39,244 nt of DNA, taken from a methanogenic archaeon (GTDB taxonomy: Archaea; Thermoplasmatota; Thermoplasmata; Methanomassiliicoccales; Methanomethylophilaceae). The translations under genes and the position numbers were made by a program. Position 1 is the first letter of the stretch, and each line of letters opens with the position of its first letter. Where the stretch lies: NCBI GenBank assembly GCA_902763685.1, contig CACWTF010000019.1, positions 1 through 39,244 of the forward strand. Direction: 5' to 3'. Shown one piece after another: positions 1,584 to 10,315 of the stretch. Under the pieces are notes generated by a model. That model was not told the DNA's origin, did no database searches, and worked only from the letters and a program-made list of their open reading frames with translations.

Positions 1584-2453
1584 TTAATGTTCTTGTATAA
1601 TCATTTTAAGATATTCATAGTATGAATTGAGTTTAAATCTAGATACCCATTCAGACAATTGTCTTTTTGTGATAAATCCCCGTTGCAGTGCAACTTCTTC
1701 AGGACAGCCAACAATTTCTCTTCCAGTTTTTTCAATTTCATAAATTGTATTAGATGCTTTAAGCAATGAATCGAAAGTTCCAGTGTCTGCCCATACGACA
1801 TCTGTTTCAAGAAGTTGTGCTTTTAGCTTACTCTGATCCATATATTTCTTGTTAAGATCTGTAATCTCTAATTCTCCCCGGGCGGAAGGTTTCAGGGTCT
1901 TTGCATATTTGCATGCATTCTTATCATACACATAAAGGCCGGTTACAGCCCAGTTGGATTTTGGTTCGGAAGGTTTTTCTTCAAGACTGAGTACTTTTCC
2001 AGTATCGTCAATCTCTGCAACTCCAAATGCACGGGGATCATCAACTGCTTTGCAGAATACCGTAGCTCCTTCAGATTCTGCCATCGCCTGAGCGAGATGC
2101 TCGTACATCTCCTCCCCGTAGAACACGTTGTCGCCGAGTGCAAGAGCGACCATGTCTCCGTCAATGAACTTCTCTCCCACAAGAAGCGCATCTGCGATTC
2201 CTCTCTGAACCTTCTGTACCGCGTATTTGATGGAAATACCGAATTGTTTTCCATCTCCGAGAAGTCTCTTGAAATATGCTCTATCATCCTTGGACACTAT
2301 AATCATAATGTCCCTGATCCCCGCACTCATGAGAGTGGTAAGAGGATAGTAAATCATCGGCTTATCATAGATCGGGAGCAAAGTCTTCGAAATATGACTA
2401 GACGCCGGATATAACCGAGTGCCCTTGCCGGCGGCAAGGATAATTCCCTTCAT
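1584..2453 (-). CDS. rfbA: Glucose-1-phosphate thymidylyltransferase family (RfbA/RmlA)
   Basis: Transfers a nucleotidyl group to glucose-1-phosphate, giving dTDP-glucose (or a related NDP-sugar) plus pyrophosphate, the first step towards rhamnose-type sugars. The start at 2453 (MKGIILAAGKGTRLYPAS) is preferred to the ATG three codons upstream. It is the classic N-terminus, and an AT box at 2474-2483 lies about 26 nt ahead, which predicts a leaderless mRNA. The GKGTRL nucleotide loop, PMIYYPL, the ALGDNVFYG metal region, EEKPSEPKSNWAVTGLYVYD and the C-terminal ADTGTFDSLLKAS block are all present. At 289 residues it is full length. No rmlB, C or D gene is nearby. It converges with the upstream sugar dehydrogenase. 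Confidence 0.88.
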   Translation of the reverse strand: MKGIILAAGKGTRLYPASSHISKTLLPIYDKPMIYYPLTTLMSAGIRDIMIIVSKDDRAYFKRLLGDGKQFGISIKYAVQKVQRGIADALLVGEKFIDGDMVALALGDNVFYGEEMYEHLAQAMAESEGATVFCKAVDDPRAFGVAEIDDTGKVLSLEEKPSEPKSNWAVTGLYVYDKNACKYAKTLKPSARGELEITDLNKKYMDQSKLKAQLLETDVVWADTGTFDSLLKASNTIYEIEKTGREIVGCPEEVALQRGFITKRQLSEWVSRFKLNSYYEYLKMIIQEH

Positions 2454-2473
2454 CAGAGTCAAAACGCTAACGC

Positions 2474-2483
2474 TATATATTAA
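2474..2483 (-). promoter_or_regulatory. TATA-like element for rfbA
   Basis: On the minus strand this reads TTAATATATA. Its centre is about 26 nt from the ATG at 2453, the archaeal TATA-to-start spacing for a leaderless transcript. There is no Shine-Dalgarno sequence ahead of that ATG, which agrees. Confidence 0.45.
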
Positions 2484-2512
2484 GGATAACGGAATGTATT
2501 ATATACTGCGAT

Positions 2513-2527
2513 TGTCGGAATCCGACA
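2513..2527. promoter_or_regulatory. 15-bp palindrome, possible operator
   Basis: TGTCGGA at 2513-2519 and TCCGACA at 2521-2527 are perfect inverted arms around a single A. The site lies upstream of rfbA and upstream of tRNA-Pro on the other strand. A second pair, AGTTGCC at 2527-2533 and GGCAACT at 2561-2567, starts directly beside it. Symmetry and position suggest a dimeric regulator site; the regulator is unknown. Confidence 0.35.
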
Positions 2528-2566
2528 GTTGCCTTATATTAACAAATAAAAAGAAAGGACGGCAAC

Positions 2567-2575
2567 TATAATATA
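2567..2575 (+). promoter_or_regulatory. TATA-like element for tRNA-Pro
   Basis: TATAATATA is centred about 27 nt before the first base of the tRNA at 2599, the expected TATA-to-start distance in archaea. Confidence 0.45.
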
Positions 2576-2598
2576 ACGAAAGGAAATCCAGGAACGTT

Positions 2599-2671
2599 GG
2601 GCCCGTGGGGTAGCTTGGTATCCTTGGAGCTTCGGGAGTTCTTGACTCCGGTTCAAATCCGGACGGGCCCA
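2599..2671 (+). tRNA. tRNA-Pro (anticodon CGG)
   Basis: The acceptor stem pairs GGGCCCG with CGGGCCC, and the discriminator is A. The D arm contains GTAGCTTGGTA. The anticodon loop is TTCGGGA, giving anticodon CGG. The T arm is TCCGG-TTCAAAT-CCGGA. The anticodon stem (GGAGC/GTTCT) uses two G-T wobbles, weaker than usual. There is no intron, and CCA is not encoded. The gene marks the boundary between the AT-rich DNA on its left and the GC-rich genes on its right. I saw no duplicated 3' end that would act as an attachment site. Confidence 0.92.
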
Positions 2672-2827
2672 CTCATTATTTTTTGACAATCTGGCTCATT
2701 CACAATACTGCAGATGATTCGGAGATAATCGACACATAATCGCTGCAGTACACCGTAATCGACGATTGTCGATACATACTTCGGTAATCCAAGCAATTTG
2801 TTATAACAGCAAGCAATACAGGAAACC

Positions 2828-3937
2828 ATGTCCAAGTTCCTTGTGGTCGGTGCGGGAATCTCCGGTGCCACCGTAGCGAATATTCTTTCCAATGACGATA
2901 AGAACGAGATTACTGTGATCGACCGTCTCGACCACATCGCGGGCAACTGCTTCGACTACCGCGATGACAACAACATCATGATCCACAAGTACGGATCCCA
3001 CATCTTCCATACCTCCGACAAAGAGGTCTGGACCTTCCTTAGACAATTCACAGGTTTCAACACTTATATGCACAGGGTCGTCGCGGTAATCGAAGGCAAC
3101 GAACTCCCCCTTCCCTTCAACTTCAACACCATCCGTATGGCCTTCCCTCAGATCCTCGCGGAAAGGATCGAGAGGAAACTCCTCGAGAAGTTCCAATACG
3201 GCACCAAGATCCCCATCCGCGACTTCATGGAACAGGACGACGAGGATCTCAGGTTCCTTGCCCAATACATCTACGAGAACGTCTTCCTCCATTACACCGA
3301 GAAACAGTGGGGCAAATCCCCCGACCAGATCGACGGTGCCGTCACCGCCCGTGTCCCCGTTTATCTATCGAGGGACGACCGCTACTTCCAGAACACCTAT
3401 CAGGGTATCCCCCTGGAAGGCTACACCTCCATGATCCAAAGGATGCTCAATTGTCCCAATATCAAGGTTCAGCTCAACAAGGAATTTAAAGAAGTTGATC
3501 TCAAAGGTTACGATTTTATCTTCTATACCGGCCCCATAGACGAGCTCATGGATTACCGGCTGGGCCAACTGCCGTACCGCAGCGTGCACTTCGAACTGGA
3601 GACTTACGACCGGGAACACTACCAGTCCGGTGCTGCAGTAAATTATCCCAACAACTACGAGTTTACCCGTATCCACGAGTACAAGTACTACCTGAATGAC
3701 AAATCTGATAAGACCGTCATAGCCAAGGAGTATTCCGAGGACTTCGTCCCCGGCAAGAACGACAGGTATTACCCGGTACCCGGCGAGGAGAACACCGAAC
3801 TGTACAACAGATATCTCGCCCTCGCTCAGGAGAAATATCCCAACATGCGTTTCCTGGGAAGGCTGGGGGATTACCGTTACTACGATATGGACAAGGCCGT
3901 CCGCCGTGCCCTCGACGTCGTGAAGGAATTCTGCTAA
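2828..3937 (+). CDS. glf: UDP-galactopyranose mutase
   Basis: A flavoenzyme that interconverts UDP-galactopyranose and UDP-galactofuranose, supplying Galf for surface glycans. The N-terminus has the FAD-binding GAGISGATVANIL motif, followed by HIAGNCFDYRD, the family's flavin contact, and then HKYGSHIFHTSD. YTEKQWGKSPDQI, RVPVYLSRDDRYF and the C-terminal FLGRLGDYRYYDMD blocks are typical of Glf. At 369 residues it matches the bacterial-type enzyme. The next gene downstream is a GlfT2-like transferase 32 bp away, which supports a Galf role. Two inverted repeats lie in the 156-bp upstream gap: 2706-2713 with 2743-2750, and 2758-2763 with 2768-2773. Confidence 0.95.
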   Translation: MSKFLVVGAGISGATVANILSNDDKNEITVIDRLDHIAGNCFDYRDDNNIMIHKYGSHIFHTSDKEVWTFLRQFTGFNTYMHRVVAVIEGNELPLPFNFNTIRMAFPQILAERIERKLLEKFQYGTKIPIRDFMEQDDEDLRFLAQYIYENVFLHYTEKQWGKSPDQIDGAVTARVPVYLSRDDRYFQNTYQGIPLEGYTSMIQRMLNCPNIKVQLNKEFKEVDLKGYDFIFYTGPIDELMDYRLGQLPYRSVHFELETYDREHYQSGAAVNYPNNYEFTRIHEYKYYLNDKSDKTVIAKEYSEDFVPGKNDRYYPVPGEENTELYNRYLALAQEKYPNMRFLGRLGDYRYYDMDKAVRRALDVVKEFC

Positions 3938-5779: not shown

Positions 5780-7012
5780 ATGCTCTATGAGTTCTCGGTC
5801 AGGAACTACGGGCCTTTCCGTGACAAGGCCGTCTTGAATCTGATGAGTACGAAGAACACGGAACATCCGGATAACGTGATCAGGAACAGACGCAACGGCA
5901 ACGTGCTCTCCTCAGCCCTCATATTCGGGGCCAATGCATCGGGAAAGTCATACATCCTGAACGGCATACATGCCCTCCAGAACCTGCTGAAATCAGTAGA
6001 TGTCCGTCGGGAAGGTATCCATGGGTATGAACCGTTCCGTCTTTCCGAGGAAACCCTCAGTATGCCGACCGAGTTCAGTATATGCCTGTCCGCGGGTGAG
6101 GACCTCTACAGATACACCATATCCTTTACTGCCGAGAAGATATCTGCCGAATCTCTGGTCCTGGTCAGCCGCCGCGATGTCGAGATCTTCAGCAGAAAGG
6201 ATGGGGAATACAGTCTATCGGGGTGCAAGGATGTCACCGATAAGACCTCCCCCACGTCTGCATACCTCACCGTGGCTGCATCCTATAACGATGAATTATG
6301 TTACAAGGTGCTTTCCGCGATAAGTGACATCCTATGCGTAGACGGGGACGAGATCAGCTACTCTGCGTATGAATCCTACGAATATCTCAAGGATCACGGT
6401 TCGGCGATGGATGTGGCTTTAGATGCTCTGAAAACCGCAGATTTCCACGTATCCTCATTGAGAGGAGAGGAGCAGGATCTGCCCAAGAAGCTGTTCGATG
6501 ACAATTCGGAGATAGTCTCGCACTATGAAGCCATCTTTTCCAGACTCAGGACAAAACTGTACCTCACTCATGATTATAGATCCGTCCCGGAGGAACTGAG
6601 GGAATTCCCGTTATCCATAGAATCAAACGGGACACGCAGTATGCTGGGGATAATCGGCCCAGTGGCGGCTGCCCTGACCGAGGGAAAGGTACTGGTCATT
6701 GATGAATTCGGTTCCTGTCTCCATCCGATGCTCACAAGATGGATCGTCGATCTGTTCAAGGGCGACTACAATGTCAAGGGGGCTCAGATGATTGTCAATA
6801 CCCATGACATCGGTCTGATGGATATCCAGAACCTTGTCCGCAGGGATCAGATATACTTCGTAAACAAGAATTGGGAGACCGGCGAATCGGAGATCTACTC
6901 ACTGTCTGATTTCAAGGGTGTTCGGAAAGATACGCGTGTCCTAGATGCGTATCTGTTCGGAAGGTTCGATGCGGTACCGAACATCATCTCCCCCCGCGGA
7001 AGGATATCATGA
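5780..7012 (+). CDS. AAA15/AAA21 family ATPase of a RloA/AbiL-like pair
   Basis: An ABC/SMC-like ATPase of the OLD/RloA type, typical of anti-phage abortive systems. The N-terminus is the usual FSVRNYGPFRDKAVLNL strand. Walker A is GANASGKS near residue 54. Walker B is VLVIDEFGSCLHP near residue 306, followed by the IVNTHDIGLMD histidine switch. The 410-residue length matches this class, which has a short insertion and no nuclease domain. The last four bases overlap the RloB gene start (ATGA), so the two are translated together. In AbiL and PARIS, a similar ATPase senses phage and frees or activates a TOPRIM-like effector. Function here is inferred from that pairing. Confidence 0.85.
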   Translation: MLYEFSVRNYGPFRDKAVLNLMSTKNTEHPDNVIRNRRNGNVLSSALIFGANASGKSYILNGIHALQNLLKSVDVRREGIHGYEPFRLSEETLSMPTEFSICLSAGEDLYRYTISFTAEKISAESLVLVSRRDVEIFSRKDGEYSLSGCKDVTDKTSPTSAYLTVAASYNDELCYKVLSAISDILCVDGDEISYSAYESYEYLKDHGSAMDVALDALKTADFHVSSLRGEEQDLPKKLFDDNSEIVSHYEAIFSRLRTKLYLTHDYRSVPEELREFPLSIESNGTRSMLGIIGPVAAALTEGKVLVIDEFGSCLHPMLTRWIVDLFKGDYNVKGAQMIVNTHDIGLMDIQNLVRRDQIYFVNKNWETGESEIYSLSDFKGVRKDTRVLDAYLFGRFDAVPNIISPRGRIS

Positions 7013-7602
7013 GTCCGGCAAGAGGCAGGGAAAGCAGGCAGCAGAGCAGGCTCATGTTCATCCTCGTGGACGGTAAATCGGAGAAGAAATACTTCGAGAA
7101 CTTCAGGGGAATCAATCCTCATCTGAGGATCGAGATCATGTCCGAGCGCGATCAATGCTCCTATCCCAAATCCCTCAAGTACTGCATGTCCCAGATGACC
7201 AGACGTCAAATGGAATTGGACAAGGGTGACAAGGCGGTCATCGTTACCGATGTGGACAGGCATACATCCCAGGATGTCATGGATTTCGACAAGGATTGTA
7301 CAAAGCAAGGAATCGGGCTGTTCGTCTCCAATCCTTCTTTCGAAGTCTGGCTGGTCCTCCACTTCGAAAGAATCACCAGGTGGATGTCCTGTGAGGAACT
7401 TAACGATGAACTGACCCGTATCCTGGGTCGGAGATATGTGAAATCCGAAAGCATCCCGTTCGACAATGACAGGTTGGAGACAGCAATCACAAACGGATTC
7501 GCTCAGTTCGATGATTCGAAGAACCGTAATGAACAGTGTCTCGGTAACGATGTGTCCCGTACCACGCTTCATCTGCTGGTCAAGGAGATCATGGATTTCT
7601 GA
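7009..7602 (+). CDS. RloB-family (TOPRIM-like) effector
   Basis: A 197-residue RloB domain. The visible motifs are ILVDGKSEKKYFENF near the start (acidic residue of the TOPRIM fold), VIVTDVDRH in the middle (the DxD metal pair) and the family signature SNPSFEVWLVLHFE. C-terminal helices follow. Such proteins are candidate nucleases or tRNases that act with an AAA15 ATPase in abortive infection. The start overlaps the ATPase stop by ATGA. No third gene belongs to the pair: the next gene starts 50 bp later and is a Sel1 protein. The effector's target is unknown. Confidence 0.82.
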   Translation: MSPARGRESRQQSRLMFILVDGKSEKKYFENFRGINPHLRIEIMSERDQCSYPKSLKYCMSQMTRRQMELDKGDKAVIVTDVDRHTSQDVMDFDKDCTKQGIGLFVSNPSFEVWLVLHFERITRWMSCEELNDELTRILGRRYVKSESIPFDNDRLETAITNGFAQFDDSKNRNEQCLGNDVSRTTLHLLVKEIMDF

Positions 7603-7652: not shown

Positions 7653-8513
7653 ATGGACACCGACCCCGAATCCCTCTACCAGGAAGCATTGGAACTCATC
7701 GAGAAGGAGGAATATTCCGAAGCCGCCGACAGGCTGAAGATCGCCTCCAAGCAGAACCATATCCGTTCCCAGGTGGAATTGGGTTCCCTTTACATCACAG
7801 GCGACGGTGTCCCGTGTTCCCCCAAGGATGCCTTCGCACTGTTCCGTTCGGCCGCGGAGCAGGGCGATGCGGAGGCCATGTGCTACATCGGTCGTATGTA
7901 TCTCAACGGGGACGGCACCGAACAGTCCGACAAGAAAGCGTTCAGATGGTTATCCGAAGCCAAAGAGAAGGGCGAGACCGATGCCCTCAGCTGTCTCGGG
8001 TTCATGTACCACGAGGGGAAGGGATGCGAGAAGGATATCGACAAAGCACTTGAATGCTACACCGCCGCCGCGGAAGCCGGCGACCCGGAGGGTCCGTACA
8101 ACGCCGCTTCCATCTGTCTCGAGAAGGAAGACTACGGGAACGCCGCCAAATATTTTGAAATAGGAGCCGACGACGGCGACCCCGGATGCATGGCGGAGCT
8201 CGGATTGCTCTACAGGGACGGGAAGGGTGTGGAACAGTCCGCCGATAAAGCTGTCGAACTCTTCGATAAGGCTTACGCCGAAGGCAACCCCGACGGTCTG
8301 CTGTACAAATCCACTCTCTTTTACAACATGACCAGCATGGTTTGGGAGGCCGCCGATCACGGCAGCACCAAGGCCATGAACCAGCTTGCGGAGAAGTTCA
8401 AGGGCGACGCACAGAAGATCGCTCGTCTGGAGAAGGATTACAGGATTGTCCTGGAATCCGATCCCGACGCCGAATCCGATTATGCGGAGTTCAAGAGGAT
8501 AATCTCTCAGTGA
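7653..8513 (+). CDS. Sel1-like repeat protein
   Basis: A 286-residue solenoid of about six Sel1/TPR repeats. Repeats are recognised by turns such as LYITGDGVPCSPKDAFALF, MYLNGDGTEQSDKKAFRW, MYHEGKGCEKDIDKALECY and LYRDGKGVEQSADKAVELF, each about 36 residues apart. There is no signal peptide or membrane segment, so it is probably cytosolic. Sel1 proteins act as adaptors in complexes; nothing shows the partner here. The last seven bases overlap the 3' end of the convergent two-repeat gene on the other strand. Confidence 0.88.
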   Translation: MDTDPESLYQEALELIEKEEYSEAADRLKIASKQNHIRSQVELGSLYITGDGVPCSPKDAFALFRSAAEQGDAEAMCYIGRMYLNGDGTEQSDKKAFRWLSEAKEKGETDALSCLGFMYHEGKGCEKDIDKALECYTAAAEAGDPEGPYNAASICLEKEDYGNAAKYFEIGADDGDPGCMAELGLLYRDGKGVEQSADKAVELFDKAYAEGNPDGLLYKSTLFYNMTSMVWEAADHGSTKAMNQLAEKFKGDAQKIARLEKDYRIVLESDPDAESDYAEFKRIISQ

Positions 8514-9496
8514 TCCTCGTCGACGAACACCGCCAGGGAGTGGGCGAAGCCCGCGATCCTGGCGGGGTCGTCGTATTTGAACGCGAACGTAAGGACATCC
8601 CTGAGATACTCCTCGTAGGGCTTGGGCGAGTTCACCATCCCGTAGGTCATCCTCAGGTCGTTGAGTATCGAGGGTATGGGGACCTCCCTGAACACGTACC
8701 AGAAGCAGGCCTGCGCCGATACGCACAGCCTCACCATGCACGAGGACACCACATGTTTCTCCATGACGATCTGGGTTATCCCGTCCATCACCTTCTCGTA
8801 GTTCCTGTTCTGGAAATCCTCGATCAGATTGCGGAACATCCCCTAATCGTTGGTGGCGGGACAGAACAGTCCCAGCGGCTTGAAAAGAACCTCTCCCGTA
8901 TTGGGCAGCCTGGTGAGGTACTTGTGCGACAGCATCGCATACCAGCCGTTCTCGTCGATCCCCGAATAATCGTCGGAGACGATGACCGGACTGTCCTCGC
9001 CTGTGTAGATCTTCACCTTCTCGGCGAGCTCGTCGTCGCTCAGTTCCCCGTCGATCTCCTTCACAACTTCGGCAGCGAAGCTGAAATACGATTCCACCAC
9101 GGTGTTGACCCTCGCGGTGCACAGGAACGCTTCCTTCATCCTCTGCTGGTCGCCCACGGAGGGGACCCTGTTCTCCTCCAGCCACCAGCGGATGTGCGCA
9201 GCTATCGACAATTTCACAAGACCCAGACTTGCGACGCGGTTCTGTCTGATGTACTTCCTAATCTCAAGGAACGTCTCCTCGAAATCCCCGCGTTCGTATC
9301 CTTCGATCATGGATACGAGCTTCGCTCCGCAGACCCCTCCGGGGCTCCTGATGCCCAGCGGGGGGTACAGGACGGTCTCCGTGTTGGGGAGCAGTTTCAC
9401 TCCCCTGCTGAGCACCAGACGGAACTCCATGTCCTTGGTATCGTCCCTCTGCGGCCCTTCGGCCCTGTCCTTCTTCCCGAGGATTCCCATATCCAT
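8507..9496 (-). CDS. Two-repeat protein of unknown function with in-frame TAG (candidate pyrrolysine)
   Basis: I do not recognise the family. Reading from the ATG at 9494-9496 the frame meets TAG at 8843-8845, then continues open, in the same frame, to TGA at 8507-8509. Read through, it is 329 residues made of two homologous units. Unit 1 includes LPNTETVLYPPLG...MIEGYERGDFEE. Unit 2 includes LPNTGEVLFKPLG...LIEDFQNRNYEK, and the TAG falls between those two blocks of unit 2. The two units align without gaps across the TAG: 24 residues separate the blocks in each when TAG counts as one. The ATG two codons after the TAG has no ribosome site. This supports TAG as a sense codon. The alternatives are a recent nonsense mutation or a sequencing error. 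A TATA box on the minus strand at about 9551-9562 serves the gene. Confidence 0.7.
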
Positions 9497-9508
9497 GCAC
9501 CTGTCGAG

Positions 9509-9527
9509 GTTCCGGCGGAGCCGGAAC
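9509..9527 (-). promoter_or_regulatory. 8-bp inverted repeat in leader of the TAG-containing gene
   Basis: GTTCCGGC at 9509-9516 and GCCGGAAC at 9520-9527 are exact inverted arms around GGA. With a start site predicted near 9530 from the TATA box, this would be the first structure in the mRNA or an operator over the start site. An AGGTG ribosome site lies between it and the ATG. Confidence 0.4.
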
Positions 9528-9640: not shown

Positions 9641-10315
9641 TCACGATAGGTTCCTGACGAACGCCATGCCCCTGGCGTACTTGGAGATCCTCTCCTCGTG
9701 GAAGAGATATGTGTCCTCCAGCACCGAGACCAGCCTGGTCATCTGGGGATCATCCGCTATCGCTTTGTCGATGAGCTCGAACTCCAGTTCGTAGCAGGGA
9801 AGGCTATGCCTTCCCGTCTTGGGATCGGTGTACACCATCCTGTCGAAGCTGAAGTCGTACGCGTGCACCCTGGATTTGATCAGACATTTCCCCCTCACGA
9901 CCTCCACCTTGAGACGCGGTATCTTATCAATATCAACCGGGCCGTATACCTCGTTGGCATAACCCTGCACGGACTTCCAACGGTCGAACCTGGAATCGTT
10001 GAGAATCTCTCCCTCGATCTCCCTCCTGGAAAGACCCAGACCGTTCCTTATGGTAGGCAGTTTCACCGTGAGGAATGCTTTGCACCCGCAGTCGCGGTAC
10101 CTTAGCAATATATTATCCTTATCGAAGTTCCCTGCCGAATCGGAATAATAGAAATCCGTATGTTTCCGGCCGACGGGATCGGGATGGGTGAAACCCTCCG
10201 CTTCGCAGATGCGGAGTAGCATGTTCATGCTCGGTACGGGGTCATCGCTGTCATAAGAGAAGACCCCGCCCGGGCTGTACATCTTGATCTCGTTCTCTAT
10301 CCTCACTTCGGGCAT
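9641..10315 (-). CDS. CYTH-domain protein
   Basis: CYTH enzymes (class IV adenylyl cyclase, thiamine triphosphatase or tripolyphosphatase) bind a triphosphate in a beta tunnel. The diagnostic ExExK motif is ENEIKM at residues 7-12. Further tunnel strands carry KHTDFYYSD, ILLRYRD, AFLTVKLP, LSRREIEGEI, KVEVVRGKC, SFDRMVYTD and CYELEFELI, with alternating charged residues as expected. At 224 residues it is complete. The substrate cannot be told by eye; triphosphatase is more likely than cyclase for an archaeon. A TATA-like run at 10340-10349 (minus) lies about 27 nt from the ATG, suggesting its own leaderless promoter despite only 36 bp to the upstream regulator gene. Confidence 0.8.
   Translation of the reverse strand: MPEVRIENEIKMYSPGGVFSYDSDDPVPSMNMLLRICEAEGFTHPDPVGRKHTDFYYSDSAGNFDKDNILLRYRDCGCKAFLTVKLPTIRNGLGLSRREIEGEILNDSRFDRWKSVQGYANEVYGPVDIDKIPRLKVEVVRGKCLIKSRVHAYDFSFDRMVYTDPKTGRHSLPCYELEFELIDKAIADDPQMTRLVSVLEDTYLFHEERISKYARGMAFVRNLS

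Follow-up and report, generated by a model that had tools for sequence, protein, structure and literature searches.

The window analysed here comprises the complete contig C19 (39,244 bp) of an archaeal assembly that totals 1.54 Mb in 89 contigs. On its minus strand (8507-9496) it contains a gene for a protein made up of two homologous units, the frame of which is interrupted by an in-frame TAG. We consider it highly likely that this gene encodes a single protein of 327-329 residues and that the TAG is decoded as pyrrolysine by tRNA-Pyl(CUA) and PylS without a dedicated insertion element.

Reading frame and internal duplication of the window gene

The frame 8507-9496 comprises 330 codons and terminates with TGA at 8507-8509. 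The only in-frame stop before that end is the TAG at 8843-8845 (minus strand, codon 218), just as the first-pass annotation of this DNA had described it, and the frame contains neither a second stop nor a frameshift. Coding log-odds per codon amount to 0.291 upstream of the TAG and 0.339 downstream of it; 110-codon pieces taken from real genes have a median of 0.355, and all remaining reading frames score below the gene frame. Downstream of the TAG, codons are thus used as in a real gene. The product had originally been given as 329 residues, a figure that holds when counting from the beginning of the frame; the likelier start is the ATG at 9488-9490 (Met3), which is preceded by a Shine-Dalgarno-like AGGTG (9498-9502, minus strand, position taken from the sequence) and would yield 327 residues. 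It had also been claimed that the ATG following the TAG lacks a ribosome binding site. This ATG (8837-8839), located one codon past the TAG, is indeed without a Shine-Dalgarno match at usable distance, but since roughly every second start called in this genome likewise has no such motif, its absence on its own is weak evidence. The 5' leader features a perfect, GC-rich hairpin, GTTCCGGC-TCC-GCCGGAAC (9509-9527, minus strand), with a TATA-like TTTATAAT upstream of it.

Unit 1 spans residues 24-148 (9053-9427, minus strand) and unit 2, which holds the TAG, spans residues 183-329 (8510-8950, minus strand). Both the 35 residues preceding the TAG (183-217) and the 111 residues following it (219-329) align to the N-terminal unit (z = 8.8 and 8.6, respectively, with 0 of 2000 shuffles as good in either case). 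The two parts fall on an identical ungapped diagonal (unit 1 = unit 2 - 161) with a joint z of 19.3, such that homology runs in frame across the TAG by way of the internal duplication and codon 218 pairs with Gly57 of unit 1. The two homologous units and their gapless register, both noted in the first reading of the sequence, are therefore confirmed; the spacing of 24 residues it gave between the PLG motif and the I-E-x-[YF] block has to be corrected to 15 in both units. AlphaFold models are poor (pLDDT 38 for the whole protein, 49 for unit 2) and Foldseek searches with them returned no match at E <= 0.001. The low-confidence model of unit 2 is helical: helices seem to come after a short hairpin, and the first of them is predicted to begin at the TAG, where unit 1 carries the glycine.

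TAG usage and pyrrolysine machinery in the genome

Stop codons were surveyed in the window and 36 further stretches, together amounting to 733 kb or 48% of the genome. TAG accounts for 13 of the 670 called stops in this sample, and nine of these 13 reside in read-through genes: five methylamine methyltransferase genes (MtmB, MtbB and MttB, of which mtbB and mttB are presumed assignments, made from sequence by family knowledge without a model search), an aminotransferase gene, a Sel1 gene, an Rpn-like gene and the window gene. The others are unclear or artefacts, and no clean TAG terminator was found in the 733 kb. L024 was set aside because homology is lost in the C-terminal part, L061 as a frameshifted Elp3-like gene, L025 as a probable antisense shadow and L023 as a transposase-like ORF lying at the edge of a contig. 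The coding frame goes on past 6 of 11 TAG ends, but past no more than 40 of 610 ends at TAA or TGA (Fisher P = 4e-5). Those 40 are largely in-phase neighbours with a start of their own, and operon neighbours in the same phase inflate the raw TGA figure for continuing frames. When the methyltransferases are left out, the frame still continues past three of six TAG ends (P = 0.005). In the half of the genome sampled, TAG has essentially disappeared as a terminator and appears to act as a general sense codon.

In-frame TAG codons also occur within conserved genes that are unrelated to each other. The gene L074 (contig C29, 3632-4705, plus strand), which we take from its sequence to be aminotransferase-like, belongs to a near-universal family, is the only close copy in the genome and carries TAG at residue 117. 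At the corresponding position 29 orthologues carry Glu, Ala or Lys, and the orthologue of 97% identity has GAG there. In the Sel1-repeat protein L017 (contig C11, 8407-9300, minus strand), TAG at residue 255 is matched by TAG in a second species (L107 of genome G023, 72% identity), while homologues elsewhere mostly have Tyr. For a pyrrolysine conserved outside the methyltransferases, this Sel1 TAG would make a stronger candidate than the TAG of the window gene. The Rpn-like protein L065 contains an in-frame TAG where its paralogue has Tyr. The Rpn-like nuclease family is expanded in this genome (10 matches, e.g. L065 and L141), and three of the Rpn-like nucleases among the matches listed have an in-frame TAG. 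Among sister species, a gene for a TetR-type regulator (L039 in G018, 6122 onward, plus strand) and one for a HAD-like protein (L040 in G013, 2158-3252, minus strand) are each broken by a single TAG past which the frame continues.

The search for pylTSBCD proposed in the first-pass annotation revealed the complete set on contig C49, where mtmB, pylT, pylS, pylB, pylC and pylD are arranged in a row. The anticodon of pylT, read by eye, is CTA. PylS (TIGR02367, 274 aa) lacks the N-terminal domain and has its best matches in structures 6jp2 and 6ezd, features by which the archaeon probably belongs to the family Methanomethylophilaceae of the Methanomassiliicoccales. The in-frame TAG of mtmB is followed by a PYLIS_1-like element that scores below the gathering score, whereas the window gene exhibits neither a PYLIS match nor an unusual fold after its TAG. 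A PYLIS element is not required (PMC9499178).

The notion that the TAG of the window gene is a sense codon is well supported at the level of the genome by the pyl genes, the depletion of TAG and the further sense TAGs. As TAG is almost never used as a stop and is presumably read as pyrrolysine, the TAG in the middle of the window protein very probably stands for one more amino acid. We infer that translation proceeds through this TAG and, from the decoding machinery, that residue 218 is pyrrolysine: the tRNA-Pyl(CUA)/PylS pair of the genome would read the codon, and no dedicated insertion element would be needed. Because TAG has all but ceased to serve as a terminator in this lineage, a codon mutated to TAG may persist as a tolerated missense change. 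Pyrrolysine 218 would accordingly most likely be neutral and not catalytic. There is a slim chance that the orphan protein is functional and that its pyrrolysine is selected instead of merely tolerated, doing a specific job outside the methyltransferases; for a role of that sort, the Sel1 TAG found in both species would be the more promising case.

Genomic site and alternative explanations

Judged by the searches conducted, the window protein is an orphan. Homologues were found neither in 102 genomes of the family, nor in 147 of the order or 390 of the phylum, and nothing significant was obtained from GTDB contigs, IMG/VR, phages, plasmids, Pfam, NCBIfam, PHROGs, PADLOC or PDB; no notable Pfam or NCBIfam match places it in the methylamine methyltransferase family MtmB/MtbB/MttB. 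The strongest weak profile matches among those examined (L046, L047 and L053) are ORFs resembling polyprenyl synthetases, and we attribute these matches to chance. Two neighbours serve as synteny anchors, an upstream gene weakly similar to class IV adenylate cyclases of the CYTH type (9641-10315, minus strand) and a convergent Sel1-repeat gene (7653-8513, plus strand). In the nearest species (genome G014), the flanking genes occur in the same order with the Sel1 gene directly after the CYTH-like gene, and the orphan gene is missing at this syntenic site. An AbiL-like AAA ATPase gene and rloB form a pair in the window (5780-7602, plus strand); a divergent AAA/RloB pair (31% identity; L038, 5295-6841) is situated across the CYTH-like gene, on the opposite side, in G014. 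The different placement of these pairs in the two genomes indicates a variable site, which looks to be defence-bearing.

A rival reading is that a recent nonsense mutation struck a dispensable accessory gene, with translation ending at residue 217 and the gene being a young pseudogene. The gene is species-specific, resides in a variable spot and is missing from the syntenic site of the nearest genome, and no orthologue was found that would reveal the original residue at the TAG position, which keeps a fresh mutation conceivable. However, TAG is apparently read through in the near-universal aminotransferase gene and in the Sel1 gene with its conserved TAG, and the frame of the window gene has accumulated no further stop or frameshift, so that we regard a nonsense mutation as unlikely. 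The position of the ATG one codon past the TAG would permit a different arrangement, i.e. a gene for a 217-residue protein ending at the TAG and a second for a 110-residue protein translated from ATG 8837-8839 by re-initiation. In this genome, TGA is often followed by a neighbouring gene in the same phase. Yet the break would fall within unit 2 and not between the units, the ATG is devoid of a usable Shine-Dalgarno motif, and the sampled part of the genome does not use TAG to terminate genes cleanly; the chance that two genes are present is accordingly very slim. Much the same holds for an error of sequencing or assembly at 8843-8845 concealing an ordinary sense codon, which we deem highly improbable. 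The assembly is split into 89 contigs and has defects elsewhere, e.g. in L061, but these are frameshift-like, whereas in genes checked by homology the interruptions of substitution type consist of TAG, and one other TAG, that of the Sel1 gene, recurs in an independent genome.

Relation to known pyrrolysine proteins

With read-through of the TAG as the preferred explanation, the window gene can be compared with known cases. Pyrrolysine in methylamine methyltransferases is catalytic. The window protein would share with MtmB, MtbB and MttB the decoding of an in-frame TAG as pyrrolysine, but unlike these has no sequence relation to them. The first-pass annotation considered a candidate that is not a methyltransferase to be unusual. 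This does not hold for the group, in which such cases are the expected pattern: for 'Ca. Methanomethylophilus alvus', where TAG makes up 1.6% of stops, 16 pyrrolysine proteins other than methyltransferases have been predicted, one of them a Sel1 protein, and the authors reasoned that a mutation to in-frame TAG is stable in a cell of this kind (Borrel et al., 2014; PMC4153887). The situation described here resembles that relative in the pyl cassette, in the great rarity of TAG as a terminator and in homologues that often lack the TAG; in both, in-frame TAG is found in assorted, often hypothetical proteins that include a Sel1 protein (PMC4153887). In contrast to the 'Ca. M. alvus' set, the window protein matches no family or genome searched, and the case for its read-through is built on an internal duplication, not on a BLAST hit that spans the TAG. 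The window gene is a new example of a kind of candidate already described in close relatives.

Our observations support the view that TAG serves this methanogen group in practice as a 62nd sense codon and that standard annotation therefore cuts such genes short. Kivenson and co-workers reportedly described in 2025 archaea with a 'Pyl code', in which all TAG codons are said to mean pyrrolysine; the apparent use of TAG as a general sense codon in the half of the genome sampled here is similar. With a Sel1 TAG common to two species and a TAG in a near-universal family gene, it becomes possible to test if residues of this kind are of use or neutral.
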